From the NCBI RefSeq assembly GCF_003614185.1, contig NZ_KZ987724.1, positions 259,512-323,511 on the forward strand: a stretch of 64,000 nucleotides of DNA. Reading direction: 5' to 3'. Within the stretch, counting starts at the first letter, position 1. Each line of letters starts with the position of its first letter. Shown piece after piece: positions 9,336 to 52,143 of the stretch. This stretch comes from Paenibacillus aceti (GTDB lineage: Bacteria; Bacillota; Bacilli; Paenibacillales; Paenibacillaceae). Below the pieces are notes generated by a model, which did no database searches, was not told where the DNA came from, and saw only the letters and a program-made list of their open reading frames with translations. The position numbers and the translations under genes are program-made.

Positions 9336-9518
9336 TAACGAAACGGGGTATCGCTAATTCCGCCCAAAAGGGTGAATTGAACATCTGACGAAACTAGGTA
9401 ACGCTATTTGAGCAAATTTCTGGCTTAAACCCTGGATTTTATTAAAATAACGATATGGAGTTTCCTTAGATTCAAAAGCCCCTCATTTTTGCGAGAATAA
9501 CGATATGGTGTTTCGTTG
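9336..9518. repeat. Quadripartite intergenic repeat, locus 1
   Basis: Four units: two direct units starting TAACGAAAC (9336) and TGACGAAAC (9386), and two inverted units ending at 9468 (GTTTCCTTA) and 9518 (GTTTCGTTG). Direct units are 50 bp apart, inverted units 50 bp apart. The direct units carry the GGTATCGCTA or GGTAACGCTA core, the inverted ones the AACGATATGG core. No ORF is present. Confidence 0.85.
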
Positions 9519-9560
9519 GAAATCTGAGGGAGATTATAATTAAATTCAGGAGGGATTGAG

Positions 9561-9926
9561 ATGAGTATACTGACGGTTTATCACTATCCGAAATGCGGTA
9601 CCTGCCGCAAAGCGGTGAAGTGGCTGGAAGAGCACGGACATCAGCTGGAATTGCATAATCTTAAGGAAACGACCCCTTCAAGTGAAGAATTGACGGCCAT
9701 GATCGACCGCAGCGGACTGGAGCTGAAGAAGTTCTTCAATACGAGCGGTGAAGTGTATAAGGAGCTGGGGCTTAAGGACAAGCTTCCAGGGTTGTCACGG
9801 GAAGAGGCGATCGAACTGCTGGTCGCGAACGGCATGCTGATCAAGCGCCCGCTTGTTACCGATGGTCAACAAGTAACCGTGGGCTTCAAAGAGGAAGGAT
9901 ATAAGCAAGTCTGGGGAAAAAAGTAG
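9561..9926 (+). CDS. yusI: ArsC/Spx-family thioredoxin-fold protein, YusI-like
   Basis: The 121-residue protein has a thioredoxin-like fold with a CxxC pair in YPKCGTCRKAVKWLE, then FFNTSGEVYKELGL and the cis-Pro region LIKRPLVTDG. It belongs to the ArsC/Spx/YffB group and resembles B. subtilis YusI, a protein of unknown function. It lacks the features that would make it Spx itself, and there are no arsenic genes near, so arsenate reduction is unlikely. Good AGGAGGG site 8 bp before the ATG. An inverted repeat (AGTTGAACT at 9925-9933, AGTTCAACT at 9990-9998) follows its stop. Confidence 0.85.
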   Translation: MSILTVYHYPKCGTCRKAVKWLEEHGHQLELHNLKETTPSSEELTAMIDRSGLELKKFFNTSGEVYKELGLKDKLPGLSREEAIELLVANGMLIKRPLVTDGQQVTVGFKEEGYKQVWGKK

Positions 9927-10024
9927 TTGAACTAGGGCAAGGACTGATCGGAAGAACATTTCACCCGGCCGCCTGCATCTGGACTCATAAGTTCAACTTT
10001 CTAGTAGAGGAGTTAGTTATAGCA

Positions 10025-10915
10025 ATGATCGAACAAACGAAGGAACGTTTATTATTAGTGGACGGGATGGCTTTGATGTTCCGAGCCTTCTATGCTTCAG
10101 CTGCCAGCGGTTATATCCGGCGGACGAAGGCGGGGCTTCCGACCAATGCCGTCTACGGATTTATGCGCTATTTCTGGGACGCTGTACAGAAGTTCGAACC
10201 GACGCATATCGCCTGCTGTTGGGATTTGGGCAGCAAAACATTCCGCACGGAGCAATTCTCGGCTTACAAGGGCAACCGTTCCGATGCGCCAGATGATCTG
10301 ATCCCGCAGTTCTCAGTGATTCGTGAAGTGATGGATAGCCTTGGTATTCCTAATGTCAGTGCGCCTGGCTATGAAGCCGATGATTGTATCGGTTCATTGG
10401 CCGCTAAATTTAGCGAGGATATGGATGTGTTCATTCTGACTGGCGACCATGATATGCTACAGCTTATCACTGAGCAGGTTAACGTCATTATTATGAAAAA
10501 GGGCCATGGCAATTACATGGTATACACGCCGGAAAGCCTGCTCGAGGAGAAGCAATTAAGACCTAGGCAAATCATCGATATGAAAGGGCTCATGGGCGAT
10601 GCTAGTGACAATTATCCGGGGGTGCGCGGGATCGGCGAGAAGACGGCGCTGAAGCTTGTGCAGGAATATGACTCGGTTGAAGGTATACTGGCTAATCTGG
10701 ACGGGCTATCGAAATCGGTTCGTACGAAAATAGAGAATGATCTGGATATGCTGCATCTATCCAGACAGCTTGCTGAGATCCGTTGTGATGTGGAATTGGA
10801 GTGCTCGATTGAGGCTTGTTGCTTCGAACTGAACCCGGCGCTTGTGATCTCCAAGTTTGAGGAACTGGAGATGGCCAGTATCCCATCCTGGATGGGGCTG
10901 GCTATGGCCAAGTAA
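10025..10915 (+). CDS. ypcP: 5'-3' exonuclease, YpcP/FEN type
   Basis: The 296-residue protein consists only of the 5'-3' exonuclease module found at the N-terminus of DNA polymerase I. It has the acidic metal-binding motifs DGMALMFRAFY, YEADDCIGSLA, TGDHDMLQL and GDASDNYPGVRGIGEKTA, the last including the helix-hairpin-helix. It should remove RNA primers or flaps during replication and repair, like B. subtilis YpcP. The cytosolic protein has no polymerase domain and stands alone. Confidence 0.9.
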   Translation: MIEQTKERLLLVDGMALMFRAFYASAASGYIRRTKAGLPTNAVYGFMRYFWDAVQKFEPTHIACCWDLGSKTFRTEQFSAYKGNRSDAPDDLIPQFSVIREVMDSLGIPNVSAPGYEADDCIGSLAAKFSEDMDVFILTGDHDMLQLITEQVNVIIMKKGHGNYMVYTPESLLEEKQLRPRQIIDMKGLMGDASDNYPGVRGIGEKTALKLVQEYDSVEGILANLDGLSKSVRTKIENDLDMLHLSRQLAEIRCDVELECSIEACCFELNPALVISKFEELEMASIPSWMGLAMAK

Positions 10916-11050
10916 GGTTAGAGCGGTTTACTTTAAGGGGGGTTCCCACTAAAAATGTTTAATTTACATTGGGGGAGCCGCCCTTGTTCTATGTTTGCAC
11001 GGACTATCGCCTATACATAATTAATTTTTTTGAGTGGGGGATGAAGAAAG

Positions 11051-11935
11051 ATGAAGAAGAAGAGGTCATTGAGAATATTAATGTCCCGTATGAAGGGGAG
11101 ATCCACTGGGCTATTAGGGTTGCTGCTGCTTATCGCTGTACTGCTGGTCGCCTGTGGTGGGGGGACAGGAAGCGAGGACGCGGCGGGAACCGCTACTGCC
11201 GACGCTGCTGCTAACGGAGCAGAGACGACAGAGCCGGTTACACTCATCGTGTCAGCAGCGGCAAGCTTGCGAGATAGTCTGGAGAGCCTTACTCCGCAGT
11301 TCGAGCAGGAGAATCCAGGCATTACCGTAACTTATAATTATGGAGCGTCAGGTTCATTGCAGAAACAGATCGAGCAAGGCGCACCGGCGGATGTATTCCT
11401 ATCGGCTGGACAGAAGCAGATGGATGCGCTGATTGAATCAGGACATATCGAGGCGGAACAGAGCCTCAATCTATTAAAAAATAGTCTGGTCGTCATCGTA
11501 CCCGCAGATGCTAAGGTTGTCCCGGAGAGTCTGAACTTACTAGAGGACGCTGACACTGGCATCGGGATGATCGCTGTCGGTGAACCGGAGGTGGTTCCGG
11601 CCGGAATGTATGCCAAGGAATCGCTGGAGCATGAACAATTGTGGGACAAGCTCTATTCCAAAATGGTATTCACCAAAGATGTAACCCAAGTGCTCACCTA
11701 TATCGAATCCGGGAATGCGGATGCCGGGTTTGTCTATCTGAGCGATGCGAAGTCTTCTACGAAGGTGAAAACCGCATTTGCGATCGACGATTCCTATCAT
11801 CGGCCGATCGTCTACCCTGCTGGAATGGTGGCTGAGACCAAGCATAGGGAAGCGGCCCAAGCTTTTATGCAGTTCATTCGGGGAACGGCGGCGAGTGACA
11901 TCTTCACAGAGCATGGCTTCACGGTGGCGGAGTAG
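11051..11935 (+). CDS. modA: Molybdate ABC transporter substrate-binding lipoprotein
   Basis: The 294-residue protein has a basic N-terminus, a hydrophobic signal segment and the lipobox LLVAC, so it is anchored outside the membrane. The mature protein has the ModA hallmarks ASLRDSLESL, YGASGSLQKQIEQGAPADVF and GEPEVVPAGMYA, which bind molybdate or tungstate. The start codon is uncertain, because the G-rich site (GTGGGGG) is about 10 bp upstream of this ATG. A partner permease gene begins 8 bp downstream. No ATPase gene follows. Confidence 0.9.
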   Translation: MKKKRSLRILMSRMKGRSTGLLGLLLLIAVLLVACGGGTGSEDAAGTATADAAANGAETTEPVTLIVSAAASLRDSLESLTPQFEQENPGITVTYNYGASGSLQKQIEQGAPADVFLSAGQKQMDALIESGHIEAEQSLNLLKNSLVVIVPADAKVVPESLNLLEDADTGIGMIAVGEPEVVPAGMYAKESLEHEQLWDKLYSKMVFTKDVTQVLTYIESGNADAGFVYLSDAKSSTKVKTAFAIDDSYHRPIVYPAGMVAETKHREAAQAFMQFIRGTAASDIFTEHGFTVAE

Positions 11936-11943
11936 ACGAATTG

Positions 11944-12600
11944 ATGAATCGTGATTTTCTCATTCCGGTCGGTCTCTCCTTAAAGGTAGCGCTGATCGCC
12001 GCCGTGCTTGCTTTCCTGCTGGCCGGACTTGCGGCCTGGCGGATCGCGGATAAGAAATTCAGAGGCAAGCTGCTGCTGGAGACGGTCTTCATGCTTCCGA
12101 TGGTGCTGCCCCCGACCGTTGTCGGCTTTCTGCTACTCGTCATCTTCGGGCGGCGCGGATTCATCGGCAGAGCCTTCGAGTGGCTGACCGGGATGCCGAT
12201 TGTGTTCACTTGGGGAGCGGCTGTATTGGCTGCGGCGGTCGTCGCCTTTCCGCTCGCTTATCAGGCCGCAAAGGCGGGCTTTGCCTCGATTGATCGCGAT
12301 CTCCTTGAAGCCGGGCGCTCGCTGGGAGCTTCGGAATGGAAGCTGCTATGGCTGGTGGAGATCCCGCTTGCCCAGCGCTCGCTCCTGACTGCGTTCATCC
12401 TGGCCTTCGCCAGGTCGCTGGGGGAGTTCGGGGCGACGCTAATGCTCGCTGGCAATATCCCGGGCAGAACCCAGACGTTGCCGACGGCGATTTATATGGC
12501 AGTAGAATCCGGAGATATGACATCGGCCTGGCTATGGGCGGCGCTGATGATCCTGATCTCCTTCATCCTGCTCGCCGCAACCAACCCCCGCTCGGAATGA
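11944..12600 (+). CDS. modB: Molybdate ABC transporter permease
   Basis: The 218-residue inner-membrane protein has about five transmembrane helices and the EAA loop EAGRSLGASEWKLLWLVEIPL that contacts the ATPase. FGATLMLAGNIPGRTQTLP is typical of ModB. ATG at 11944 is preferred over the TTG directly before it. The stop codon lies inside a terminator hairpin, so the transcription unit ends here without modC; the transporter must use an ATPase encoded elsewhere. Confidence 0.9.
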   Translation: MNRDFLIPVGLSLKVALIAAVLAFLLAGLAAWRIADKKFRGKLLLETVFMLPMVLPPTVVGFLLLVIFGRRGFIGRAFEWLTGMPIVFTWGAAVLAAAVVAFPLAYQAAKAGFASIDRDLLEAGRSLGASEWKLLWLVEIPLAQRSLLTAFILAFARSLGEFGATLMLAGNIPGRTQTLPTAIYMAVESGDMTSAWLWAALMILISFILLAATNPRSE

Positions 12601-12610
12601 ACGGGGGTTT
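12583..12610 (+). terminator. Terminator overlapping the modB stop codon
   Basis: AACCCCCG and CGGGGGTT form an 8-bp stem around the stop codon region, followed by TTT. The T-run is short, so efficiency may be moderate. Confidence 0.65.
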
Positions 12611-12662
12611 AAGTCTGCCTATTGCGAATACGAAACATGGGCTGTCCTAACGCTCTGAATTG

Positions 12663-12795
12663 TAACGAAACGTGGTATCGCTATTTGCCTCAAAAGGAGC
12701 GATTTCAAAACCTAACGAAACGGGGTATCGCTATGGGGACAAATCAGGGACTAAATAGTGGATTTTCACCCAAATAGCAATATGGTGTTTCGTCC
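12663..12795. repeat. Quadripartite intergenic repeat, locus 2 (three units)
   Basis: Direct units TAACGAAACG start at 12663 and 12713 (50 bp apart). One inverted unit with core AGCAATATGG and end GTTTCGT closes at 12793-12795. The span of 133 bp from first to third unit equals that of the complete loci; the fourth unit is absent. Confidence 0.75.
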
Positions 12796-12861
12796 CGATA
12801 AAATCCCGCCCCGACCAGATAAATTCCTCTCGAAAATGCAGGCGTACCCAGTTGAAGTCCA

Positions 12862-13161
12862 TTAATCTGTGAAGTAAGGGTCGCCGACCACTTGGTAGAG
12901 GAAAGTTCGCAGTTCCTCGCCCTCTTGCTCATCCAGAGTGAAGAGACGCTCCAGATAGCCTTCTTCCTCCAGATCATCTGTGCCAAGGATGGCTGTGCGT
13001 CCATTCTGTAAATCGGCGACGAGCTTCTTGCCATAGAAGCGGTTTGTCGTCGTGACCGCGAGATCAAAGCGTTTTAGTGAATGTCCGATGAAGGTGACGA
13101 ATCTCGTTGAGGTGCTCTCCGTGCTGTCGGATAAGAAATCCAGATCATTTGGGTCAGTCAT
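12862..13161 (-). CDS. DUF3055 (SAV0927-like) protein
   Basis: The 99-residue acidic protein (TRFVTFIGHSLKRFDLAVTT, GKKLVADLQNGR, VVGDPYFTD) matches the DUF3055 family of small cytosolic Firmicute proteins of unknown function. The start at 13161 is chosen because AAGGAGG lies about 8 bp upstream; an in-frame upstream ATG lacks such a site. It is convergent with modB and divergent from the HRDC gene. Part of a quadripartite repeat lies just beyond its 3' end. Confidence 0.75.
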   Translation of the reverse strand: MTDPNDLDFLSDSTESTSTRFVTFIGHSLKRFDLAVTTTNRFYGKKLVADLQNGRTAILGTDDLEEEGYLERLFTLDEQEGEELRTFLYQVVGDPYFTD

Positions 13162-13242
13162 AATATAGACCTCCTTAAATTGCAATGTCTTTTGTCATTA
13201 TATCGGAAAAAATAGGGTTTGTGGGAAAAGGTGCTATAATCG

Positions 13243-13270
13243 TTGACAGTCCATTAAAAGATGGTACAAT
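13243..13270 (+). promoter_or_regulatory. Sigma-A type promoter of the HRDC gene
   Basis: TTGACA and TACAAT are separated by 16 bp, 113 bp upstream of the start codon at 13383. The leader between them contains a terminator-like hairpin. Confidence 0.65.
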
Positions 13271-13300
13271 TAGGGATAACAGTATACGTCTGGGGGAAGT

Positions 13301-13335
13301 ACCTCTCTTGCTATTAGCAGGGGAGGTGTTTTTTG
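13301..13335 (+). terminator. Terminator-like hairpin in the leader of the HRDC gene
   Basis: ACCTC-TC-TTGC and GCAG-GG-GAGGT pair across a TATTA loop and are followed by GTTTTTTG. It sits about 25-58 nt after the expected transcription start and 48 bp before the start codon, so it could act as an attenuator or end a short RNA of about 60 nt. No known riboswitch class was recognised. Confidence 0.6.
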
Positions 13336-13382
13336 TTGTTCTGGCCCCTTATGTAGCTGAATGTATAAAGGAGGCGAAGGGT

Positions 13383-14387
13383 ATGAGGATCGTATTTCTA
13401 AACAGTATGGAGAAGAGCTTGGAGGAAGGAGCTACAGCAGAGGCGCAGGTCTGGATCGGAGAAGATGAGGGAATATGGCATATGGGCTGGAATGAGCTCA
13501 AGCTGGAGGGGCAGCAGGAGACGGTCTGGTTCGAGGGCTCCTCGTGGTCGGAGATGCTCCTCGTCTACCGACATCGGCTGGCTGCCAAGCTGAGCGAAGG
13601 CTTCAGGCCGATTATCGAAGGGATATGGAACGAGGGCGATCTGGTGCAGGGCAGGGGCATGGCGGCGCAGAGATTGGTCTGTTATAGTGAGCTGCATCCG
13701 AATCAAGAACTGTATGCTGAACTCGTATCCTGGCGGAGAAGGAAGGCGTCAACGGAGCGTAAAGCCCCGTATTTGATAGCTAGTAATCGGCTATTGAGAT
13801 TGATCAGTGTGTTCTGCCCGCATACCAGGGAAGAATTGCTGCAGCTGCCCGGTGTCGGCGAGAATAAGGCGAATGAATATGGGGCTGAGCTGCTAGAGCT
13901 AACGCAGAATCGTGAGCAGACGAGAGCTTTCCCGCTGGACTGGGTGGAACAGACTATAGATGATGAAGCCTTCCGCTCTTGGGTATATCGACAGAAGGAA
14001 GTCAAATATCGGGCCGAGGCCGAGAAATTCAGCCTGCGCCGCAAGGTGCTGGAATGTCTGGCTGAAGGGATGAATATCAACGATATCTGTCTTCAGACGG
14101 GAATGGAGCGGAGGGATACGCTGGCCATGCTCGAGGTGCTGGAGAAGGACGGCTACCAGATCGAGGAGCTGATCAAGCTGGAGCTGCAGGATATGCCAGA
14201 TCAGGAACAGACAGCGGTATGGCAGGCCTTCGCCGAGCTCGGCGATGCTTTTCTGAAGCCGGTGTTGCTGCGGGTGTACGGGAAGGAAGGGGCTGAGGGG
14301 GGCCAAGCTGATCTATTATACGAGCGTCTGAGATTGATCCGTCTTCAATTCCGTCGCAGCGCGGAATCGGCTCAGAGAGCGGGATAG
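13383..14387 (+). CDS. HRDC domain protein with C-terminal helix-turn-helix region
   Basis: The 334-residue protein has an N-terminal region of unknown type, an HRDC domain at about residues 115-185 (ELVSWRRRKASTERKAPY, then LLQLPGVGENKANEYG) and a C-terminal helical region with a helix-turn-helix look (LAEGMNINDICLQTGMERR). HRDC domains bind nucleic acid and usually occur in RecQ helicases, but there is no helicase core here. ATG 13383 is chosen because AAAGGAGG lies about 11 bp upstream; the open frame extends further but includes the promoter. Its function may be in DNA metabolism; this is inference. Confidence 0.75.
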   Translation: MRIVFLNSMEKSLEEGATAEAQVWIGEDEGIWHMGWNELKLEGQQETVWFEGSSWSEMLLVYRHRLAAKLSEGFRPIIEGIWNEGDLVQGRGMAAQRLVCYSELHPNQELYAELVSWRRRKASTERKAPYLIASNRLLRLISVFCPHTREELLQLPGVGENKANEYGAELLELTQNREQTRAFPLDWVEQTIDDEAFRSWVYRQKEVKYRAEAEKFSLRRKVLECLAEGMNINDICLQTGMERRDTLAMLEVLEKDGYQIEELIKLELQDMPDQEQTAVWQAFAELGDAFLKPVLLRVYGKEGAEGGQADLLYERLRLIRLQFRRSAESAQRAG

Positions 14388-14414
14388 CTTGTCCGCGAAG
14401 CGCTTAACGACAGT

Positions 14415-14464
14415 AAAAAAGAGGAATATTCATAAACGGACAGATCCGCCAGTGAATATTCCTC
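14415..14464 (-). terminator. Terminator of corA (minus strand)
   Basis: GAGGAATATTCA and TGAATATTCCTC form a 12-bp stem. Read on the minus strand the hairpin is followed by TTTTTT (AAAAAA at 14415-14420). Confidence 0.8.
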
Positions 14465-14471
14465 ATGATGT

Positions 14472-15407
14472 TCAAATCCAGTCCCGCTTGCGGAATAAAT
14501 AGAACATGCCTACCCCAAGCACGGCCATAATGCCAAGGACTACATAATAGCTATATTTCCAATGCAGCTCAGGCATATTGTCGAAGTTCATTCCATAGAT
14601 CCCCGTAATCAGAGTCAGAGGAATGAAGATCGTTGTAATTGCCGTGAACACGCGCATAATTTCGTTCGCCCGGTTAGCGATCGAAGCCTGATAGGCTTCT
14701 CTTAAGTTCCCGATCAATTCGCGGAATGTATCGAAGTTTTCAGCGATTTTAACCGCATTTTCATAGATATCGCTGAAGTATTTTTGCAATTGATCGTCAA
14801 TCAGACGCAAATCCTTCTTATTTAAGATGTTAATAACTTCTTTTTGCGGACCGAGCATTTTCTTCAGCCACAGAATTTCACTTCGCAGCCCGATGATCTC
14901 GTTCAGATGCGAACGCTTCGTGTGCATCAGAATATCTTCTTCCAGATTCTCAATCTTCGTCTCAATCCGGTCGCCGACTGTGAAGTAATTATCCACGACA
15001 AGGTCGATGAGCAGATAGAGGAACCAGTCTGGCGCGCTGACCTCCTGTTCCCACAGGAGAGGCTTAACCGCGCGAAGCTCGTTGATTTTCTGCTTGGTAA
15101 CGGTAATGATATAATGCCGTCCGAGGAAAATATTCAATGACCGCAGGAAGATTTCCTCATCATCATAACGGATACTGTTCACTACAATGAAATAGTGATT
15201 CTCATAAGTCTCGATCTTAGGCCGCTGTTCTTCTTCCGAAAGACAGTCTTCAACGGCCAAATCATGCAGCGAGAATAGGGGTTGAAGCAGAGCGAGATCC
15301 TCGGTCCCTGCATCGATCCAATAGAACCCTTCCTCTGGAGGGGTAGTCGTAACTTCCACATCCTCTACTGCTGTAAATACGCCATCTTTAACATGACGAA
15401 CTTTCAT
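14472..15407 (-). CDS. corA: CorA-type magnesium/divalent cation channel
   Basis: The 311-residue protein has the large N-terminal cytoplasmic domain, the long stalk helix, and two C-terminal membrane helices with the signature YGMNFDNMPEL between them. It forms a homopentameric channel that admits Mg2+ and sometimes Co2+ or Ni2+. The start is supported by AAGGGAG. The leader of about 240 bp upstream contains a structured region that may sense metal, and a sequence complementary to the region beside the ribosome binding site. Confidence 0.95.
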   Translation of the reverse strand: MKVRHVKDGVFTAVEDVEVTTTPPEEGFYWIDAGTEDLALLQPLFSLHDLAVEDCLSEEEQRPKIETYENHYFIVVNSIRYDDEEIFLRSLNIFLGRHYIITVTKQKINELRAVKPLLWEQEVSAPDWFLYLLIDLVVDNYFTVGDRIETKIENLEEDILMHTKRSHLNEIIGLRSEILWLKKMLGPQKEVINILNKKDLRLIDDQLQKYFSDIYENAVKIAENFDTFRELIGNLREAYQASIANRANEIMRVFTAITTIFIPLTLITGIYGMNFDNMPELHWKYSYYVVLGIMAVLGVGMFYLFRKRDWI

Positions 15408-15500
15408 ATTTAATTCACTCCCTTTTCCTGGCCATTACGTCAGGGTATGCACTTTAGATGAAGCACAGGAAAAGACAGCGTCAATTCAGGATAGACATGG

Positions 15501-15650
15501 GAAAGAGGCGTCACTTAATAAAACACCGGGTAAAGAAGTGCCCGCGCTAAATCCACAGGTCGTCTGTTGACCGTTTTTTCCTATGCGGTTGTATAAAAAA
15601 TACCTCTGCGGACTCGGGTCGCCTTCCATCTCGGATGTTCACCTCTTCGT
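15501..15650 (-). promoter_or_regulatory. Candidate metal-sensing leader (M-box-like) of corA
   Basis: Read on the minus strand, AACGAAGAGGTGAAC can pair with GACGCCTCTTTC at the other end to close a domain of about 150 nt. Inside it GGTCAACAGA matches a conserved part of the M-box as I recall it, preceded by CCGCATAGG. Between this domain and the start codon, CTTTTCCTG and CAGGAAAAG can pair next to GGGAG. The position before a Mg2+ channel fits a Mg2+ riboswitch. It was not folded or matched by covariance. Confidence 0.45.
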
Positions 15651-15707
15651 TCCAGTTTTTAAACACTTGTCTAGTATAACGCTGTGTGCTTCGATGTTTC
15701 AAGAGGG

Positions 15708-15800
15708 ACTTCAAAAAGTCATTTTTTCATAAGAGGCCTTTGATCAAAGCCATTGCAAGGTTTGAGCGACGCGGTGCCAAGCGGGTTGTCGGTCATTTCC
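15708..15800. repeat. Diverged fragment of the MITE-like repeat, copy D
   Basis: CTTCAAAAAGTCATTTTTTC followed by ATAAGA and GCGACGCGG aligns by eye with the left part of copy B (CAAAAAGCACATTTTTGATA, later GCGACCGCG). No right end is seen. GACTTC-AAAAA-GTC is itself a short dyad. The rest of 15651-15842 shows no gene. Confidence 0.4.
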
Positions 15801-15842
15801 GGGGCCGCTTTCAGGCTGGATAAATTGAAAGTGATGAAAGAC

Positions 15843-15870
15843 TTGTGAAAATGTAGAAATGATGTATAAT
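15843..15870 (+). promoter_or_regulatory. Promoter of the metA riboswitch transcript
   Basis: TTGTGA and TATAAT are separated by 16 bp and lie about 47 bp before the SAM-I element. Confidence 0.6.
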
Positions 15871-15916
15871 GAGATCAAATCAAATTTAAAACAAATGAAT
15901 ACAAAATACATTTTTT

Positions 15917-16040
15917 CTTATCAAGAGTAGGTGGAGGGACTAGCCCGATGATACCCGGCAACCGGCGAGCTTCGCACGGTGCTAATTCTTGCAGGATCGA
16001 TCAGTCGCAGGACTGCTTGATCTCTGAGAGATGAGAGAGG
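15917..16040 (+). promoter_or_regulatory. SAM-I (S-box) riboswitch
   Basis: The conserved S-box landmarks are present in order: CTTATCAAGAG, GGTGGAGGGACT, GCCCGATGATACCCGGCAACC and a P1 3' strand in CTCTGAGAGATGAGAG that pairs with the first. It is followed by a terminator and then metA. When S-adenosylmethionine is bound, the terminator is expected to form and shut off metA-metI. Confidence 0.95.
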
Positions 16041-16060
16041 TATATTCAGTCAGATTTCAG

Positions 16061-16097
16061 ATGGCCTTTCTCGAATTACGAGTTAGGCCATTTGTTG
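16061..16097 (+). terminator. Riboswitch-controlled terminator before metA
   Basis: ATGGCCT-TTCTCG and CGAG-TTAGGCCAT form the stem, followed by TTTGTTGT. It is the expression platform of the SAM-I element directly upstream. Confidence 0.85.
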
Positions 16098-16165
16098 TAT
16101 CTCCAGCTTTTGAAAATGACAAATGATTTGTATTCAAATTTATGAAAATGAGGAGTGGGAACATT

Positions 16166-17101: not shown

Positions 17102-17137
17102 GCTTGCTATAGGCTTGGGAAGGGAAGAAGAATAGGA

Positions 17138-18307: not shown

Positions 18308-18380
18308 TTCCTGTAAAATGCAGGAATTTCCTTAGAACCGCGGAGTTTGAATGATAAAGCCTGCATTTCTGCAGGCTTTT
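18307..18380 (+). terminator. Tandem TGCAGG hairpins after metI
   Basis: Two hairpins lie 50 bp apart: ATTCCTG-TAAAA-TGCAGGAAT (18307-18326) and AAAGCCTGCA-TTTC-TGCAGGCTTTT (18356-18380). Sequence and spacing match the last two units of the element at 44082-44268, so this is half of that element. The second hairpin with its T-run is a plausible terminator for metA-metI. The rest of 18381-18607 holds no gene. Confidence 0.75.
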
Positions 18381-18607
18381 AATCATTCCAGCTCAAATTC
18401 CTAACTGACTCGTAGTTTCGTGAAACCTCTGTAGCCGTTTTTATTGAAAAAATCATCGATATACGCTCGTAAAGGGATCGCAGAAGCTTAGCATCTGATA
18501 CCAAATCATTTGCTGTTTTTTGGCCGGGAGTATGTTAGGATAAATTTATCATTATTATTATCTGCATTTGTGATAGTTATATATTGAAGTAAGAGGGAGG
18601 GCGCTAT

Positions 18608-20820: not shown

Positions 20821-20826
20821 TTACAC

Positions 20827-23215: not shown

Positions 23216-23955
23216 AAATTATTTTATGGAAAAGATTTGTGTTGGGTGGTATTTTGACGGGGATGCTGCTGCATGGGATTACTCTGGAACAAGTTCCTGC
23301 GGTGGCCAAGTCGGCAAATGTGACGAATATAACGAAGATATCGTATGCAGATCCGTATTATAAACAGAAGCAATATTTCGATAAAATGCGCTTGCTGGAA
23401 AGTCAGGCCAAGCAGGACCAATTCGGCAATCCGGTGTTCCTACAGCATTCGGTGAAGAAGCCGAAGCCGATAGATACTGTGCAGGGGACTCCGCAGAAAT
23501 CGCAGGTGGAGAAGCCGGAGCCGCTTAAGAAGAAAGTGAGTACGGTGAAGGTCATGGCCACCGGGTATACGGCGGGTTATGAATCAACCGGTAAAAAGCC
23601 CAATCATCCGGAATATGGTATCACTTTTTCTGGGGTGAAGGTACGCCGTGATAAAAATACAGTCTCTACCATCGCCGCCGACCTGAAGGTGTTCCCGCTC
23701 GGAACCATTCTGTACATCCCTGGCTATGGCTATGGGATTGTGGCGGACAAGGGCTCGGCGATCAAGGGCAAGAAGATTGACTTGTATTTCAAGACGACCA
23801 AGCAGGTCTATAAAGAATGGGGCAAGAAGGAAGTCGAGGTTCAGGTGATCCGTAAAGGGAACGGCAAGCTGACGGAGGCTATGTTGCGTGAGTTGGGCGA
23901 GGCGATGGAGGTTAATCAGGAGATCCCCGAAGACCTCTGGAACGAAGCCGTTTGA
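23209..23955 (+). CDS. Secreted 3D-domain protein (YuiC/YabE-like lytic domain)
   Basis: The 248-residue protein has an N-terminal signal or anchor segment (about residues 10-30), a Lys/Pro-rich linker and a C-terminal 3D domain (about 110-215) with [24 protein letters not shown] and [17 protein letters not shown]. The last carries conserved Asp residues. The fold resembles lytic transglycosylases of the resuscitation-promoting type, so muralytic activity outside the cell is likely. Length and layout are closest to YuiC (Sps). Its ATG lies in the stem of a hairpin. Confidence 0.85.
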
Positions 23956-23960
23956 GAGGA

Positions 23961-24120
23961 AGTTCAAAAAGTTCGATTTTGATCACGAAGTATACCGTAG
24001 GAGCAGATTCGGCGTCGAATCTTGAATTCAGCCGGGTCTTCCGGTGCTCACGTACCCACAACGTACGCTGCGCTCCTCAGACCAAGATTCATCTAACAAG
24101 GTGCATATTTTGCCGGAACT
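23961..24120. mobile_element. MITE-like intergenic repeat, copy C
   Basis: It shares with copy A the stretches GATCACGAAGTA, CTTGAATTCAGCCGGG, TTCCGGTGCTCACGTACCC and CAACGTACGCT. Its ends AGTTC and GAACT are inverted, but the rest of the terminal repeat is diverged. It lies just after the stop codon of the 3D-domain gene. Confidence 0.6.
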
Positions 24121-24444: not shown

Positions 24445-24627
24445 TAACGAAACTACTGAACGCTATTTGCTCAAAAACAACGGTAAAAAAATGTTAACGA
24501 TACTCCATATCGTTATTCCGGCGAAACCGACTCATTTAGTGCCTTTTTTGCTCAAATAGCGTTACCTAGTTTGGTTAGATTTTGGAAGACCGCTTTTTGG
24601 TGCAAATAGCGTTACCACGTTTCGTTA
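24445..24627. repeat. Quadripartite intergenic repeat, locus 3 (reverse polarity)
   Basis: Direct units TAACGA start at 24445 and 24495; inverted units ending GTTTGGTTA and GTTTCGTTA close at 24577 and 24627. Both pairs are 50 bp apart. The CCATATCGTT core is in the second direct unit and the GCGTTACC core in the inverted units, so the element is reversed relative to loci 1, 2 and 4. Confidence 0.8.
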
Positions 24628-40962: not shown

Positions 40963-40965
40963 TTT

Positions 40966-44019: not shown

Positions 44020-44081
44020 CTGTTATGCTGCAAACACCGTGCGTGGAAGCTCCGGAGTACCTAAAGAGTATCGAAATATCA

Positions 44082-44268
44082 AAAAGCCTGCAAAAATGCA
44101 GGCTTTAACACACAAAACCGCCTGTTTCCGTGAAATTCCTGCAAATATGCAGGCATTTCCTCCAAATTTCTCGAAACCAGGCTGATCCTAAGCAAAAACC
44201 TGCATAATCGCAGGAATTTTCTTTTTCGAGCCTATAATTATGATAAAGCCTGCATTTTTGCAGGAATT
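44082..44268. repeat. Quadripartite intergenic element, third sequence family (TGCAGG hairpins)
   Basis: Four hairpins of the form CCTGCA-N4-TGCAGG, some with AAAGC/GCTTT arms, have centres near 44094.5, 44145.5, 44206.5 and 44256.5, i.e. 51, 61 and 50 bp apart. Half of this element occurs after metI (18307-18380) and a single unit before spoVR (52212-52237). Confidence 0.8.
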
Positions 44269-44273
44269 ACTAC

Positions 44274-44530: not shown

Positions 44531-44564
44531 AGGTTCCTACCTGCATGCCAATAAGCGGTTTAGT

Positions 44565-45302: not shown

Positions 45303-45394
45303 ATTGCCTCTCCTTTATATCCTAAAATTTATATGTAACTGGGAACGTTATGTATCATTAAAAATGCTATTTCGAAAAAGGCTGCCCTGAGTTG

Positions 45395-45576
45395 TAACGA
45401 AACTAGGTATCGCTATTTGCATCAAAAGGAGCGATTTTAAAATGTAACGAAAAGGGTATCGCTATTGCGGCCAAAAAACGGCTAAATGGTGGATTTCTGC
45501 TCAAATAGCGATATGGAGTTTCATTAGATTTGAATGGGGGCCGATTTTGCGAAAATAACGATATGGAGTTTCGTTA
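45395..45576. repeat. Quadripartite intergenic repeat, locus 4
   Basis: Direct units TAACGAAA start at 45395 and 45445, inverted units GTTTCATTA and GTTTCGTTA end at 45526 and 45576. The direct units carry GGTATCGCTA, the inverted units CGATATGGA. The flank GGCTGCCCTGAGTTG before the first unit is also seen, in varied form, at other loci. Confidence 0.85.
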
Positions 45577-46029
45577 GCGCTCCGGAGCTCCAGGAGGGAG
45601 ACTTGGCCGTGCTTTTCAACAGGCTGCATATTTGCAGCTTTCAGAGGTTGCCCCCCAACTCCCACGACTCTCCATCCATACCAGGCTATCCATACTAGTC
45701 AAATTATAGCACAGCCGGAAATGCAGCTCGAACGGTTCGCGATCAGGGAGAGGGCCCAGGTGTTCCACGTACAGAGTACATATTAAATCAACTATTCCGA
45801 CGGGAATAATTTATACAGAGAAAAAAGGTCAACTTCTTGCTTGTTTCCGCATAGGTATGTAATACACTTTTTCAAATTGAGTTATGTAGTAGGTGGCGTG
45901 GTTGAAGTAAGGTTGCAAGCTTACTGTAATAGTGAGTGTACGTTTTACTATCGATAGTGGACTTTTGAACAACCAGGATCAGGATCAAGGGACGGGGAGA
46001 CCCCAAGCGGAGTACAGGAGGTACCGAAC
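45577..46029. other. Intergenic stretch before prkA, no gene seen
   Basis: It holds a lone dyad (GGCTGCA-TATT-TGCAGC at about 45622-45638) similar to the TGCAGG hairpins, and AT-rich sequence further on. A mother-cell (sigma-E) promoter for prkA is expected, but no convincing -35/-10 pair was found. Confidence 0.5.
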
Positions 46030-47925
46030 ATGGATATTTTTGAACGAATAGCGTCTTACCGGGCGGAAAGCGATGCTCTGGCATGGAACGGAACATTTAA
46101 AGAATATGTCGCTCTGCTCGCTGAGGATCCTTCGCCCGCCATGACGGCGCATGCCCGGGTGTATGAAATGATTGAGTCTTATGGTGTGGAAGAGGTCAAC
46201 GGCCGGAAGAAGTATAAGTTCTTTGAGCAGGAGATCTTTGGGCTGGATCGGGCGGTGGAGAAGCTGGTCGAGGAATACTTCCACTCCGCTGCCAGGAGAC
46301 TGGATGTGCGCAAGCGGATCTTGCTGTTAATGGGCCCAGTGAGCGGCGGGAAATCAACGATCGTCACGATGCTTAAGCGTGGCCTGGAGAAGTTCTCTCG
46401 TACGGATCGCGGTGCAGTCTATGCTATCTCCGGCTGTCCGATGCACGAAGAGCCCCTGCATCTGGTTCCGCATGAGCTGCGCCCGGAGGTCGAGCGATCG
46501 CTGAATGTGCGGATTGAGGGGAACCTCTGCCCGGTCTGCCAAATGAGACTGAGGACGGAGTTCAACGGGGATATCGAGAAAGTGCCGGTGGAGAGAATTA
46601 TCATGTCTGAGGATAGCCGAACCGGCATCGGCACGTTCAGCCCTTCGGACCCGAAGTCACAGGATATTGCTGACCTGACAGGGAGTATCGATTTCTCGAC
46701 AATTACGGAATATGGCTCGGAGTCTGATCCGCGAGCGTACCGTTTTGACGGCGAATTGAATAAAGCAAACCGGGGGTTAATGGAGTTCCAGGAAATGTTG
46801 AAATGCGATGAGAAGTTTCTGTGGAATCTGTTGTCTTTGACACAGGAAGGTAATTTCAAAGCTGGAAGATTTGCCCTTATTTCCGCGGACGAACTTATTG
46901 TGGCCCATACTAACGAGTCGGAGTATAAGTCCTTCATCGCCAACAAGAAGAATGAGGCGCTGCAATCGCGGATGATCGTCATGCCGATCCCCTATAATCT
47001 GAAGGTATCGCAGGAGGAGAAGATCTACGCTAAGCTGATCGGTCAAAGTGACATGGGACATGTGCATATTGCGCCACATGCTCTGCGTTCGGCAGCGATC
47101 TTCTCTATTCTGACCCGATTGAAGGAGACGAAGAAGCAAGGGGTCGATCTGGTCAAGAAAATGCGCCTCTATGACGGGGAAGAGGTCGAGGGCTATAAGG
47201 ATGCCGATCTGAAAGAGCTGCAAAATGAATATCTGGAGGAGGGAATGTCCGGCGTTGACCCGCGTTATGTCATTAACCGGATTTCCAGCGCTCTGATCAA
47301 GCAGGATATTCAGTGCATGGGCGCGCTTGATATTCTTCGGGCGCTCAAGGATGGACTGGATCAGCATGCCTCCATTACGAAGGAAGAAAGAGAGAGATAC
47401 TTGAACTTCATCAGCATTGCCCGCAAGGAGTATGATGAGATCGCCAAGAAGGAAGTCCAGAAGGCGTTCGTATATTCTTTTGAAGAATCGGCCAAGACGC
47501 TGTTCGAGAACTATCTTGATAATATAGAAGCTTTCTGCAACTGGACGAAGCATCGCGATCCGCTGACCGACGAGGAACTGGACCCGGATGAGCGGCTCAT
47601 GCGCTCGATTGAGGAGCAAATCGGTATTTCTGAAAATGCCAAAAAAGCATTCCGCGAAGAGATTCTAATCCGAATATCCGCCTATTCCCGGAAAGGCCGC
47701 AAGTTCGAATATAATCATCATGACCGACTGCGTGAAGCGATTGAGAAGAAGCTATTCGCGGATTTGAAGGATATCGTCAAGATCACGACGTCGACCAAGA
47801 CGCCGGATGAGAATCAGTTGAAACGCATCAATGAAGTAAGCAAGCGTCTGATCGATGAGCATGGCTATTGCCCCGTGTGCGCGAATGAGCTGCTTCGGTA
47901 TGTGGGCAGTTTGTTGAACCGATAG
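46030..47925 (+). CDS. prkA: PrkA serine protein kinase / AAA+ sporulation protein
   Basis: The 631-residue protein has an N-terminal PrkA AAA+ domain with a Walker A region in LMGPVSGGKSTIV (about residues 96-108), a middle region, and a C-terminal domain with a kinase-like fold. It contains cysteine pairs (CPVCQ and, near the end, CPVCAN). In B. subtilis PrkA works in the mother cell and promotes sigma-K expression. AGGAGG precedes the ATG. Its usual partners yhbH and spoVR lie 6 kb away on the other strand. Confidence 0.95.
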   Translation: MDIFERIASYRAESDALAWNGTFKEYVALLAEDPSPAMTAHARVYEMIESYGVEEVNGRKKYKFFEQEIFGLDRAVEKLVEEYFHSAARRLDVRKRILLLMGPVSGGKSTIVTMLKRGLEKFSRTDRGAVYAISGCPMHEEPLHLVPHELRPEVERSLNVRIEGNLCPVCQMRLRTEFNGDIEKVPVERIIMSEDSRTGIGTFSPSDPKSQDIADLTGSIDFSTITEYGSESDPRAYRFDGELNKANRGLMEFQEMLKCDEKFLWNLLSLTQEGNFKAGRFALISADELIVAHTNESEYKSFIANKKNEALQSRMIVMPIPYNLKVSQEEKIYAKLIGQSDMGHVHIAPHALRSAAIFSILTRLKETKKQGVDLVKKMRLYDGEEVEGYKDADLKELQNEYLEEGMSGVDPRYVINRISSALIKQDIQCMGALDILRALKDGLDQHASITKEERERYLNFISIARKEYDEIAKKEVQKAFVYSFEESAKTLFENYLDNIEAFCNWTKHRDPLTDEELDPDERLMRSIEEQIGISENAKKAFREEILIRISAYSRKGRKFEYNHHDRLREAIEKKLFADLKDIVKITTSTKTPDENQLKRINEVSKRLIDEHGYCPVCANELLRYVGSLLNR

Positions 47926-48076
47926 CAAGGTGAGAAATAACAGATTTCAGCATCATTGAATATTTATTCATTTTCTGAAAATGTCTTAACAAATCACAAT
48001 TTTTACACTACAATTAAGAAGTAGCCTTTGATCGGGAACTGAATTTAGACAGCAGTCCAATCCTATATTTAAAAAC

Positions 48077-48113
48077 AGGGCGTACCCTTGTCGCGGTGCG
48101 CTCTTTCCAATTT
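48077..48113 (+). terminator. Possible terminator of prkA
   Basis: AGGGCGTACC and GGTGCGCTCT pair with wobbles around CTTGTCGC, then TTTCCAATTTTTTT. The stem is weak and 150 bp from the stop codon. Confidence 0.45.
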
Positions 48114-48188
48114 TTTTGGGCGGGCAAAATTACATGGTTTTGGAGTTGACGGTAAAACTTACATATTGCACAAGAAGGGACATACTTC

Positions 48189-49025
48189 ATGAAAAAGAGA
48201 TTGGCCGATATTGTAACCATTATGATTGGTGCGTTAATTTTTGCATTGGATGTTAATCTGTTCGTTATTCCGAATGATTTTGGCGAGGGCGGAGTTACTG
48301 GGGTTACGATCATTCTGTACTATTTATTTCGCTGGTCTCCCGGTCTGGTTAACTTCGTTCTTAATGCGATACTGCTAGTAGTAGGCTACAAGTTTCTTGA
48401 TAAGCAGACGACGGTCTATACGATTATCGCTGTCACATTCAACTCTCTCTTCCTGTATCTTACCGAGGGCTGGACTATCGCTTCCGATAATTTGATGATC
48501 AATGCGATCTTCGGCGGAGTATTTGCCGGGGTCGGTATCGGCTTGATTATTAAGGTGGGCGGGACGACAGCCGGATCGACGATATTGGCAAGAATCATGA
48601 ATAAGTATCTGGATTGGAATGTTAGCTATGCTCTGCTATTCTTCGATTTGATCGTGGCCTTCGCTTCTTTGTTCATTATTGGCGTACAGAGTCTGATGTT
48701 CACCATTGTGATGCTGTATATCGGTACTAAGGTGATGGATTTTATTATCGAAGGTCTGAATCCGAGAAAAGCGGTCATGATCGTGTCCAAGGAGCAAAAT
48801 CAGATCGCCGAGCAGGTGAATGTCGTGATGGAGCGGGGCGTTACGGTGCTTCACGGACATGGTTTCTATACGAAGCTGCCGCAGGAAATTTTGTATATTG
48901 TCATTAGTAAGCAGGAGATCAGTCAACTGAAGAAGATCGTGAAAGCGATCGATACGAGTGCATTTATTACGATTCATGATGTGCGTGATGTGTTCGGGGA
49001 AGGATTTATGGAGCTGTCGAAATAG
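48189..49025 (+). CDS. YitT-family membrane protein
   Basis: The 278-residue protein has five or six membrane helices in the first 190 residues (DUF161-type repeats) and a soluble C-terminal DUF2179 domain (GVTVLHGHGFYTKLPQEILYIVISKQE). Function is unknown; transport has been proposed for the family. The stop codon lies inside a terminator (GAGC-TGTC / GAC-GGCTC, then TTTTTT). Confidence 0.88.
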   Translation: MKKRLADIVTIMIGALIFALDVNLFVIPNDFGEGGVTGVTIILYYLFRWSPGLVNFVLNAILLVVGYKFLDKQTTVYTIIAVTFNSLFLYLTEGWTIASDNLMINAIFGGVFAGVGIGLIIKVGGTTAGSTILARIMNKYLDWNVSYALLFFDLIVAFASLFIIGVQSLMFTIVMLYIGTKVMDFIIEGLNPRKAVMIVSKEQNQIAEQVNVVMERGVTVLHGHGFYTKLPQEILYIVISKQEISQLKKIVKAIDTSAFITIHDVRDVFGEGFMELSK

Positions 49026-49038
49026 ACGGCTCTTTTTT
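49011..49038 (+). terminator. Terminator overlapping the end of the yitT-like gene
   Basis: GAGCTGTC and GACGGCTC pair around GAAATA, followed by TTTTTT. The first arm is inside the coding sequence. Confidence 0.8.
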
Positions 49039-49138
49039 GTATTGTACAATATTAACCCTGGATTAGAAGATTTTCCACCTCAAATTCAAGTATAGAGAGG
49101 GTAATATAGAGGTGAAAACACATCATGGGAGGTGCTTC

Positions 49139-49654
49139 ATGAGGATCATAGTAGAGGATACAGAGGAACAGTTCCACATTACTGCTGCACTTGAAGTTAC
49201 GAAGCAGGTCATCGCGAAGCCGGAGAGCGTCATGATGCTTGCGGGCGGCCAGACAACGATCGGGCTGCATCAGGAGTTAGTTCGTTTGCACCAGCAGTGG
49301 CATGTTGATTAAGCCAAAATGTATGCGTTTACATTGGACGAGTACATCGGATTACCCCCTGACGATCCAAGAAGCGTCAGCTATCGGATTCGTCATCAGC
49401 TGCTGCACCATGTGAATGTTCGGAGCGACCATATTCATATGCCCGATGGATTAGCTGCGGATTTGCAGGCGGCCTGTGCCGAGTATGACAGACTGCTTGA
49501 CGAGCATTCTGTTGATCTAGGAATTGTTGGTGTGGGGAGTAATGGGCATATCGGATTTAATGAGCCGGGGACGCCTCTTGTTCCTGCGTCTGTGCTGCAG
49601 CTTCATCCCTTTTTGACGGTTATCCTCGATAAGAAGGCGGCTAAATTATTGTAA
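49139..49654 (+). pseudogene. nagB: Broken glucosamine-6-phosphate deaminase (NagB)
   Basis: The frame starts at ATG 49139 after GGGAGGTG and encodes recognisable NagB segments: LAGGQTTIGLHQEL, FTLDEYIGLP and GVGSNGHIGFNEPGTP. It is interrupted by an in-frame TAA at 49310-49312, with no frameshift, and ends after about 171 codons. About 240 are normal, and the C-terminal third is missing. A functional deaminase would turn glucosamine 6-phosphate into fructose 6-phosphate. It precedes an intact ROK gene and a broken GH9 gene. Confidence 0.85.
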
Positions 49655-49723
49655 CTGTAATGAAGTCTAATCGTATATATAAGGATTACATAGATCAGGA
49701 TAAATAGAAAGGAGATCTACAAA

Positions 49724-50701
49724 ATGCGTGTTGGTATTGATGGACCGGTAACTGTAGGAATTGATATAGGTGCGACGAAAATATTGATCGGGTCGGTAAC
49801 GCGACAGGGGGAAATCGTTCATCAGACCAGATACGGGATTGACTTGAGTACGGAATCGCTATTAAAGAGCAGTATCTACCATTCTATCGCGGATTACATA
49901 CATGAGCACCGCAAGGAGAATCTGTCCGGAAATATCGGTGTTGGGGTGTTCGGACATGTTGACTTCGAGCAGGGAGACTGGCTTGGCACGATGAGATTGC
50001 CTGGGATGGAGATGATCCGATTCAGGGAGGATTTGAAGCTGCGATATGGAATGAATGTCGCCCTCGATAATGATGTACATACGGCGGCGCTGGCGGAGCT
50101 GCATCTGGGCAAAGGCCGTGAATACCGCCATTTTCTATATGTGAATGTGGGCACCGGGGTTGCTGCGGGAATCATAAGCGACGGCAGGCTTATACGGGGA
50201 GCGTCCAACTATGCAGGTGAAGTCGGTCACATTTTCGTCGGTCGTGATATGGAGCAGTGCATGTGCGGCAGTAGCTGGTGCCTGGAATCAGCAGCGTCCG
50301 GAGGCGGGATGATCAATCGGGTGATCCGCTGGATCAGCGAGTATCCCAATTCCAGGCTGCTCCCTTTGGTTAAATCCGGTGAGATTACTACCGCCGATAT
50401 CTTCAAGGCCGCGCGTCAGGGAGATTCACTGGCGACGAAGATACATAAGGAATTCATCTGGTCGCTCGGGATCGGACTGGTCAATCTCGTCAATATTCTT
50501 AATCCGGAAGCGATTATTATGGGCGGGGGCGTGATGCGGGACGGCTGGCTGTTGAAGGAGCTCAGTTCTTTTATCTATCAGAATACGACCGGGGTATCCA
50601 GAAGAGGCTTGAAGGAAATAACGGTCACAGAGCTGGGGCCGCAGGTGGCGGGCTTGCTCGGTGCGGCTTGTCTGGCATGGGACTATGAGAAGACAGGTTG
50701 A
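49724..50701 (+). CDS. ROK-family sugar kinase-like protein
   Basis: The 325-residue protein has the ROK ATP-binding start VGIDIGATKILIGSV, YVNVGTGVAAGI, and a zinc signature GHIFVGRD then CMCGSSWCLESAASGG. There is no N-terminal helix-turn-helix, so it is a kinase rather than a NagC/XylR repressor. The substrate is probably a hexose or amino sugar such as N-acetylglucosamine or glucosamine, inferred from the adjacent nagB and GH9 remnants. AAAGGAG precedes the ATG. The frame is intact. Confidence 0.8.
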   Translation: MRVGIDGPVTVGIDIGATKILIGSVTRQGEIVHQTRYGIDLSTESLLKSSIYHSIADYIHEHRKENLSGNIGVGVFGHVDFEQGDWLGTMRLPGMEMIRFREDLKLRYGMNVALDNDVHTAALAELHLGKGREYRHFLYVNVGTGVAAGIISDGRLIRGASNYAGEVGHIFVGRDMEQCMCGSSWCLESAASGGGMINRVIRWISEYPNSRLLPLVKSGEITTADIFKAARQGDSLATKIHKEFIWSLGIGLVNLVNILNPEAIIMGGGVMRDGWLLKELSSFIYQNTTGVSRRGLKEITVTELGPQVAGLLGAACLAWDYEKTG

Positions 50702-50732
50702 TTACTAGACTGGAAAGAGAGGGGAAGGCCGG

Positions 50733-51944
50733 ATGAAGATTCTAATCAATCATATTGGCTATGAGTCAAATGGAAGTAAGCGCGCTGTTATTATGGGCGG
50801 GGATGCAGATGAGGTGAATGGCTTTCGGGTGGTAGATTCTAAGAGCGGGCAGACTGTCTACTCTGGAAATGCTCAGCGCTGTGGCAGGGTGGATAAATGG
50901 AGGGAATGGCATTTCTGGACGGCTGATTTTGACGACTTGCAGACCGAGGGACAGTATTCTATCGAATGTGATTTTCTACTTCAAAGCGCAGCGCTGGCTG
51001 CGGCCAGCAGGCACGCCTATCCCGGCGATTATACGCGCGAGCAATATTTGTAGGCGGCGCGTGAAGCCTATGACCATCTGGCCGAGCATCATGCTGAATA
51101 TTTGAATGATGGGACGCCGAATCTCTTGGATGAGTATTGTGAGTTAACGGCTCTGACTGAGTTGTATAAGGCTTCTCTGGAACCGGATTATCTGAAAAAA
51201 GCAGGCGAATGCGTAGAGCGACTCATCGGATATTTGCATTCAAGTGGGGAGTTGGAGTGGTTACTGGAGCGCTAATGAGGAAGGACGTCCGTTCTTCCAT
51301 CCTTCGGATGCCGGATTACCTGTCGTCTCCTTGTTGAATTATTTGGAGCGGAGAAGGATCAAGAGCGGAGAAGCAAGATACTTGAGGCGGCGCAAAAGGC
51401 CATGGAGTTCGAATTGCAGATTACGCGGGAGACCAGCAATCCGTTCCATCTGGCGCGGCAATTGGTGCAGAGTGTTGATGGCAGAAGGTATACTTCCTTC
51501 TTCCTGCCGCATCAGACAGAAGCTTCCCCTTGGTGGCAAGGAGAGAATGCCCGGCTAGCGTCTCTTGCAGCGGCGGCCAGACTGCTGGCCAAGCATTTGA
51601 AGGAGGATGCTGAGGCTGACCTGAGGGGCAGATTGCTCAGGTATGCAGATGCGCAATTGAATTGGATTCTCGGGCTCAATCCCTTCGATAGCTGTATGCT
51701 TCAAGGCTCGGGACGCAACAATCCGCAGTACCATTTCGTGAACGGGTTCGATTATATGAACTGTCCGGGTGGCATCTGTAATGGAATTACGTCAGGATTA
51801 ACCGATGAGCAAGACATCGAATTATTCCTTAAATCCGTACCGGGGATTGTAGATGATAATTGGCGTTGGGCCGAGCAGTGGCTACCCCATGCTTCGTGGT
51901 ATATGTATGCGGTCGCGCTCGGTGATGATCTGGAAAAGAGTTAA
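50733..51944 (+). pseudogene. Broken glycoside hydrolase family 9 gene
   Basis: An N-terminal Ig-like part as in GH9 enzymes (INHIGYESNGSKRAVI, WHFWTADFDDLQTEGQYSIE) runs to an in-frame TAG at 51051-51053. Translation then continues in the same frame to about 51245, shifts once there, and shifts again near 51360-51400. The last part has the GH9 signature ILGLNPFDSCMLQGSG. The segment with the catalytic DAGD motif is absent, so there is also an internal deletion. The parent enzyme probably cut chito- or cello-oligosaccharides; family assignment is by motif. Confidence 0.75.
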
Positions 51945-51961
51945 CCAGTCTTTCGGAGCTC

Positions 51962-52143
51962 TAACGAAACACCATAACGTTATTTCGGCGAAATCAGCAC
52001 CCACTCAAATCTAACGAAACACCATATCGCTATTGGGGTAGAAATCCTCATTTCGCCCCTGATTTGCCCTGATAGCGATACCCCGTTTCGTTAGATTTTC
52101 AAATCCCTTTGTTTGACACAAATAGCGATATCTAGTTTCCTTA
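51962..52143. repeat. Quadripartite intergenic repeat, locus 5 (reverse polarity)
   Basis: Direct units TAACGAAACACC start at 51962 and 52012 and inverted units GTTTCGTTA and GTTTCCTTA end at 52093 and 52143. Here the direct units carry the CCATATCG or CCATAACG core and the inverted units AGCGATACC or AGCGATATC. Its orientation is thus opposite to loci 1, 2 and 4. Confidence 0.85.

Follow-up and report, generated by a model that had tools for sequence, protein, structure and literature searches.

The stretch of DNA analysed here, hereafter the window, comprises 64,000 nucleotides of Paenibacillus aceti (positions 259,512-323,511 of a 5.57-Mb contig; genome G000), and it carries five copies of an intergenic element of about 183 bp, in which two direct units are followed by two inverted units at 50/58/50 bp from start to start. 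Each unit is 25 bp long and consists of TAACGAAAC, four centre letters and TATCGCTATTTG, with a quasi-dyad TAACG/CGYTA; the plus-strand unit at 9336..9360 is an example, with TAACGAAAC, a centre tetramer and a TATCGCTATTTG-like end. An earlier note on this DNA had pointed out five recurrent non-coding loci, and matrix scans with the 25-mer, from which the unit positions below are taken, recovered all of them. Element 1 (9336..9518; units 9336+, 9386+, 9444- and 9494-, spacing 50/58/50) has the arm with the GG-class centre first and lies between co-directional pseudouridine synthase and ArsC-family genes. Element 2 (12663..12795) has three units (12663+, 12713+ and 12771-); its fourth unit is unrecognisable on rescanning, as the earlier note had it. 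Element 3 (24445..24627; 24445+, 24495+, 24553- and 24603-) is again spaced 50/58/50. Element 4 (45395..45576; 45395+, 45445+, 45502- and 45552-) lies between the divergent DUF2161 and prkA genes, and its second unit, 24 nt long, carries a 1-bp deletion that puts its score under the matrix threshold; the damage to this unit (45445) had gone unmentioned. Element 5 (51962..52143; 51962+, 52012+, 52069- and 52119-) is spaced 50/57/50, has the CC-class arm first and occupies a convergent site 3′ of spoVR. From the first unit to the end of the third, the five elements measure 133, 133, 133, 132 and 132 bp, matching the 132-133 bp originally claimed. They sit between predicted genes, with one small open reading frame (ORF) from a crude caller overlapping element 3, and the window contains 10 copies of TAACGAAAC where 0.23 would be expected, a number that 0 of 100 shuffles reached.

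The layout is repeated across the genome. When two mismatches at most were allowed, the unit pattern gave 318 forward and 315 reverse matches (633 in total), and the reversed-pattern control in G000 gave 0 forward and 3 reverse. Consecutive units in G000 were separated by 50 bp in 44 of 45 '++' pairs and in all 45 '--' pairs, and by 58 bp in 42 of 47 '+-' pairs; these figures come from 61 sources, 40 of them chosen because they contained an exact unit, and cover units scoring >20 in pairs no more than 200 bp apart. After dereplication, 136 elements were retained (56 from G000, 48 from Paenibacillus sp. GM2 (G032), 12 from Paenibacillus sp. D2_2 (G031), 10 from G011 and 10 from others), a set that excludes elements more than 3 bp off the layout, and 113 of them showed exactly 50/58/50. 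Without any spacing limit, 51 of the 63 '++--' groups were exact, and the remaining 33 of the 96 unit groups were partial, single or multiple sets. Layout variants included '+++---', '++----', extensions of a single arm by 50-bp steps and tandem copies of the whole element; in GM2, five loci (L144, L154, L156, L167 and L192) showed whole-element tandem amplification with locus-specific periods of about 200-270 bp. Spacing within elements varied by 1-2 bp, no 40- or 60-bp variant was seen, and other unit distances lay between neighbouring elements or spanned an unrecognised unit. Spacing does not vary widely among copies, in keeping with the fixed geometry proposed earlier; phase alone does not fit this pattern.

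The elements are evenly oriented on the contig (26 versus 25 of 51). For 106 of the 115 elements with at least three units, a crude ORF finder called a gene on either side, and the 94 of these that overlapped no ORF lay in 47 co-directional, 30 convergent and 17 divergent contexts, compared with 576, 151 and 148 for all adjacent ORF pairs; the median distance was 89 bp to gene 3′ ends versus 177 bp to 5′ ends. An apparent 1.6-Mb gap (1.63-3.23 Mb) among the exact matches listed had suggested that the replication terminus excludes the element; this was rejected, since 15-kb samples inside the gap contain elements and the gap is a product of the listing. An element is also present near the terminus indicated by GC skew (about 1.3-1.5 Mb). 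A search for dif with a consensus sequence gave no match.

Folding, which the earlier note had offered beside phase as the object of selection, fared poorly in its usual form. In the 51 exact elements, oriented by centre class, pairing between facing spacer columns was about as frequent as between shuffled ones, and a hairpin kept by compensatory spacer changes is not supported. The unit centres of the two arms are anti-complementary: in 89 of 136 elements, against a shuffled mean of 13.8, one arm has a CC-class centre tetramer and the opposite arm a GG-class one, so that facing centres rarely pair. At positions 11-12 of facing units there were 5-13 complementary matches versus 35-55 expected among the 136; crossed units show almost the same anti-complementarity (facing minus crossed -10, p 0.21), so that the centre effect is a property of the arms rather than of facing pairs. 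When nine variable positions are taken together, matches are fewer between facing than between crossed units (-83, p 0.0006, sign-flip test), most clearly at positions 19 (p 0.04) and 25 (p 0.01); by species, this deficit is negative in six of six and significant in none, and shared descent may inflate it.

Selection, the remaining part of the earlier proposal, is supported for the units and their spacing by elements orthologous between D2_2 and GM2, two genomes that are about 80-91% identical in the DNA around them. Across eight such elements, units were 95.7% identical (582/608; positions 1-23 minus the centre, gapped columns excluded) and spacers 74.2% (490/660), with 108/128 for the centre tetramers, 47/64 for the last two unit letters and 812/990 for the 80-bp flanks. 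Differences fall at 26% of the aligned spacer positions, where few indels are visible by eye, and at 4% of the unit positions; one of the eight D2_2 elements has lost its fourth unit. Units so much better kept than spacers point to selection in place. Homologous conversion that homogenised 25-bp units and left the 25-bp spacers diverged is unlikely, and repair of units templated by the opposite arm is disfavoured because it would give complementary arm centres, the reverse of what is observed.

Whole elements are present or absent between related genomes. According to the element finder, the element 1 site between the pseudouridine synthase and ArsC-family genes is occupied only in G000 among 30 loci compared, and the genes at this junction in D2_2 are as little as 14 bp apart. 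Upstream of prkA (element 4), an element lies at the same place in G011, D2_2 and GM2; element 2 was not assessable in G011. A whole element in GM2 corresponded to an apparent one-unit relic in G011. The site 3′ of spoVR, compared at 30 loci from 41 genomes, holds differently spelled elements in G000 and G011 and in G012, G013 and G015, the last three with the TAACGGTTG spelling; G014 has a weak candidate element further out. Orthology at spoVR leaves re-spelling and independent insertion unseparated, because elements are common in intergenic DNA.

The pattern search across other genomes that the earlier note had suggested extended the family far beyond P. aceti. Within the genus, 11 of 41 genomes contain the exact unit with at most one mismatch, four of them at high copy. 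The generic form TAACG-N11-CGYTATT, required twice 50 bp apart, was found in 215 of 395 family genomes (16 of 19 genera) and, at the level of the order, in 102 of 198 genomes, among them members of 7 of the 11 families sampled, with 0 matches for its reversed control in either set. In a species collection, the named hosts among the matches listed were Paenibacillus sp. D2_2, sp. GM2, P. glycanilyticus (two records), sp. BK033 and a Paenibacillus metagenome-assembled genome. Among the generic-form matches listed, the inner unit letters vary by species (TAACGAATC, TAACGGAC, TAACGGAAC, TAACGGCAC...GTGCCG and others), and some species have near-perfect palindromic units such as TAACGGCAC-N3-GTGCCGCTA. 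The complete elements of other lineages were spaced 50/60/50 in 23-mer terms, equal to 50/58/50, in 25 of 30 rows (22 of 27 distinct); the inner letters change from species to species, the layout does not. Single units, some near-palindromic, also form head-to-tail arrays with a 50-52 bp period (G059, C1:1243597-1244020; G060, C21:88918-89243; loci L260, L262, L268, L269 and L271); these are apparently a related form without the two-arm layout. Searches of phages and plasmids, with one query each, gave no blastn match. A contig from a viral collection (IMGVR_UViG_3300002855_000222; L350:9541-9723) matches two units exactly on both strands, at the element's spacing, in phage DNA or host flank.

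In D2_2, an IS110-family gene of an IS1111-type insertion sequence (IS), with the Pfam domains DEDD_Tnp_IS110 and Transposase_20, adjoins an element. Relatives (E up to 1e-30) were found in 8 of the 41 genus genomes, and none in G000, G011 or GM2. The IS right end is joined to ...GTTCATAG|CAACGNNNN at the 5′ edge of a unit. Among 25 parsed copies from six genomes, 19 lay inside a unit with the other units of the element at the expected offsets, and six lay without the rest of the element at those offsets, including L221 (G019) and one copy in D2_2. The non-coding 3′ ends of seven sequences had a mean column identity of 88%; few columns varied outside a short stretch flanked by the conserved GCG and TTTGCAC, which occurred in six spellings (AGTTTCG, TGATTCG, TCAACCG, TAGTCCG, TGGTCCG and TTGTCCG). 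In 21 of the 23 copies with a readable guide, the reverse complement of this stretch is identical to the four variable letters of the target, and the other two were one letter off. In the predicted consensus fold the stretch lies in a 9-nt internal loop, with a two-sided change in only one pair. The IS 3′ end carries a putative bridge RNA whose guide would follow the local spelling of the unit. A 62%-identical relative in another genome (G002, L215) has a target that is not a unit, and its end stretch matches that target over six letters by eye. Genome G019 holds two IS1111 lineages (L236, with a broken gene, and L213), whose guides are one letter apart (GACC and GACT) and whose targets show the same one-letter difference.

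Known systems offer a close parallel: IS1111 elements are reported with predicted bridge RNAs in their right end and IS621 is reported to insert into repetitive extragenic palindromic (REP) elements, according to PMC11208160, and the targeting of REPs by the IS110 family was reported in 2006 (PMC1525189). The IS described here resembles these systems in its DEDD recombinase with Transposase_20, the RNA-like fold of its 3′ end, a target-complementary loop and insertion into extragenic palindromes. It is unlike them in that the target is a four-unit element and the guides of related copies differ in step with the host spelling. The element is order-wide, spelled in a species-specific manner and a target of IS1111 elements, none of which had been part of the earlier note.

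The reading that we favour, with a rough probability of 0.48, is that the dispersed element serves to dock a sequence-specific protein, whose existence we infer, and that RNA-guided insertion sequences parasitise the element. A chromosomal protein, probably a dimer, would recognise the sequence of each unit and bind it as a duplex, and four bound sites at set distances would form one nucleoprotein complex; this could explain why the units keep their letters and the spacers only their length. The exact layout, the breadth of the family, the constraint on units in place, the dyad-like form of the units, the element upstream of prkA at one site in four genomes and the targeting by insertion sequences speak for this reading. 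The specificity of the protein would drift between species, so that units within one genome would share a spelling, and IS1111 elements would exploit the abundant unit sites through their bridge RNA, with the guide tracking the local spelling. New copies seem not to require a Y1 (REP-type) transposase.

Several points weigh against this reading. No binding protein was identified or correlated with the element; a common spelling within a genome is also expected from successive bursts of a mobile element; and patchy distribution and high turnover are weak points, with only one of the five window elements (prkA) common to all three relatives compared. No generic-form match was found in 180 of the 395 family genomes at the stringency used, and the element is thus not essential. 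The estimate of constraint comes from a single species pair and eight loci. In addition, the deficit of matches between facing units is not predicted by plain duplex binding and hints at a role for the palindromic state. A more ambitious version, in which an order-wide docking element with fixed four-site geometry has its letters rewritten genome-wide in each species and is held by selection in place, with a co-evolving host factor implied and the bridge-RNA guides of IS1111 as a natural record of the rewriting, would be rather doubtful. Under this version, if the enforced centre mismatches are functional, the element may be read in a folded form, an attC-like principle outside integrons.

The main rival of the docking reading is a selfish element similar to a REPIN (an inverted REP doublet) or to a miniature inverted-repeat transposable element (MITE), without host function, whose conserved letters would be recognition sites for a unit-recognising transposase or recombinase that copies the element; we regard it as possible and on the whole unlikely. 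The presence or absence of copies between relatives, the short gene junctions at empty sites and the apparent one-unit relic in G011 fit such an element, as do a subfamily proper to each species, the palindromic order and the tandem copies. Outer units also start with TA and end with TA, and MITEs with a TA target have TA at both ends. However, fixed copies of a selfish element are expected to decay evenly, and here the units are kept far better than the spacers in place. The Y1 transposase (PF01797) that a REP/RAYT (REP-associated tyrosine transposase) origin would call for was missing from 13 of the 20 high-copy genomes examined (one is 78% complete) and present in three of four zero-copy genomes, leaving that origin unsupported. 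Among the loci searched, neither a parent insertion sequence (whole genomes were not searched for one) nor a gene flanked by half-elements was found, apart from one loose candidate, a + / -- pair 3.8 kb apart. No clean target duplication was readable at polymorphic sites, where the flanks are unalignable up to the element. The G000 contig C1 carries 14 Y1_Tnp genes (L242-L255) with identical scores, perhaps one recent IS200-type expansion, and none was found in GM2, G011 or D2_2.

As short, high-copy, extragenic palindromic units found mostly in inverted pairs, the units agree with the usual description of REPs and REPINs. According to PMC3116915, REPs and REPINs with RAYT in Pseudomonas and E. 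coli share with the element high-copy extragenic quasi-palindromes in inverted order at preferred distances, spacers that have a set length and are less conserved than the units, and service as IS110-family targets. The Paenibacillus element is ordered ++-- at 50/58/50, whereas the REPIN is an inverted doublet, and it lacks the compensatory spacer changes reported for REPINs in the same paper. Neither a GTAG nor a CGTC tag, names taken from the title of PMC3733652, occurs in the unit matrix or the 51-element consensus; both are of the TAACGAAAC...TATCGCTATTTG type, so that this check covers TAACGAAAC-type units, and the search patterns for other species presuppose TAACG. The element works like a REP-type repeat in several respects and is not filed as one here.

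A further alternative is a folded single-stranded DNA site that a recombinase would read much like the attC sites of integrons, with paired outer and inner boxes, an unpaired centre and a strand polarity set by mismatches. By analogy, the ability of facing units to pair at both box ends and not at the centre, the opposite centre classes of the two arms and the facing deficit over the nine variable positions would all suit it. However, crossed units are nearly as anti-complementary at positions 11-12, which assigns the centre effect to the arms, shared descent may inflate the deficit that remains, and such a site would not require exact spacing; we consider this explanation improbable. A transcribed structured RNA acting as terminator, mRNA stabiliser or processing site is hardly to be expected, for although the palindromes of the five window elements fold in silico at -38 to -63 kcal/mol (no shuffled control) and elements lie nearer to gene 3′ ends, with 30 of 94 contexts convergent, 17 of the 94 lie between divergent genes, the two contig strands are used evenly, spacers show no compensatory changes and no element has an Rfam match.

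Other short palindromic intergenic elements with many copies and modular variants include ERIC, RUP, NEMIS, bcr1-type MITEs, BOX and Correia. In contrast to these, the element keeps a four-unit layout order-wide with different letters. Nucleoid or operator site arrays likewise have dyad sites at set spacing throughout the chromosome; the element differs from them in its frequent presence or absence between relatives, in showing no exclusion from the replication terminus and in having no known binding protein. To our knowledge, extragenic repeats of Gram-positive bacteria have been studied much less than REPs. ERIC, RUP, NEMIS and bcr1-type MITEs are named in PMC3733652. The earlier note knew of no name for the element, and we likewise found no published name or description in searches on repeats and on bridge RNA in the open-access literature, which covers the field in part and cannot be searched by sequence, so that an earlier description elsewhere is possible; the portion of the P. 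vortex genome paper available (PMC3012674) counts global, inverted and tandem repeats and does not describe the four-unit repeat. Nor did it match a known structured RNA: Rfam searches at gathering thresholds gave only two riboswitches, both outside elements.

The family is large and searchable by pattern, and its internal control, units versus spacers, helps to separate constraint from copying. The guide stretches and matching targets form a natural series across species that is useful for studying how RNA-guided IS are retargeted, and a protein pulled down by the element, if obtained, would make the function of the repeat directly testable.

The window also holds a SAM riboswitch at 15915-16037 (Rfam RF00162, 71.2 bits) and two further kinds of repeat. 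A second dispersed family (GTTCAAAAAG..., CGAATTCAAGATTCGA..., GAGCACCGGAAGGCC) lies at 4137-4497 and 23955-24097 of the window, and was also seen at L155 (about 7030-7400), after a gene at L321 (G011) and in the L213 flank; by eye it is common to other Paenibacillus genomes, and G011 carries it at the position that element 1 occupies in G000. Small hairpin-like repeats of the form AAAAGCCTGCA-N-TGCAGG(C) lie at 18351-18375, 44078-44102, 44240-44264 and 52208-52232 of the window and are also found 3′ of spoVR in G011 and D2_2; they are possibly terminators or a further repeat family.

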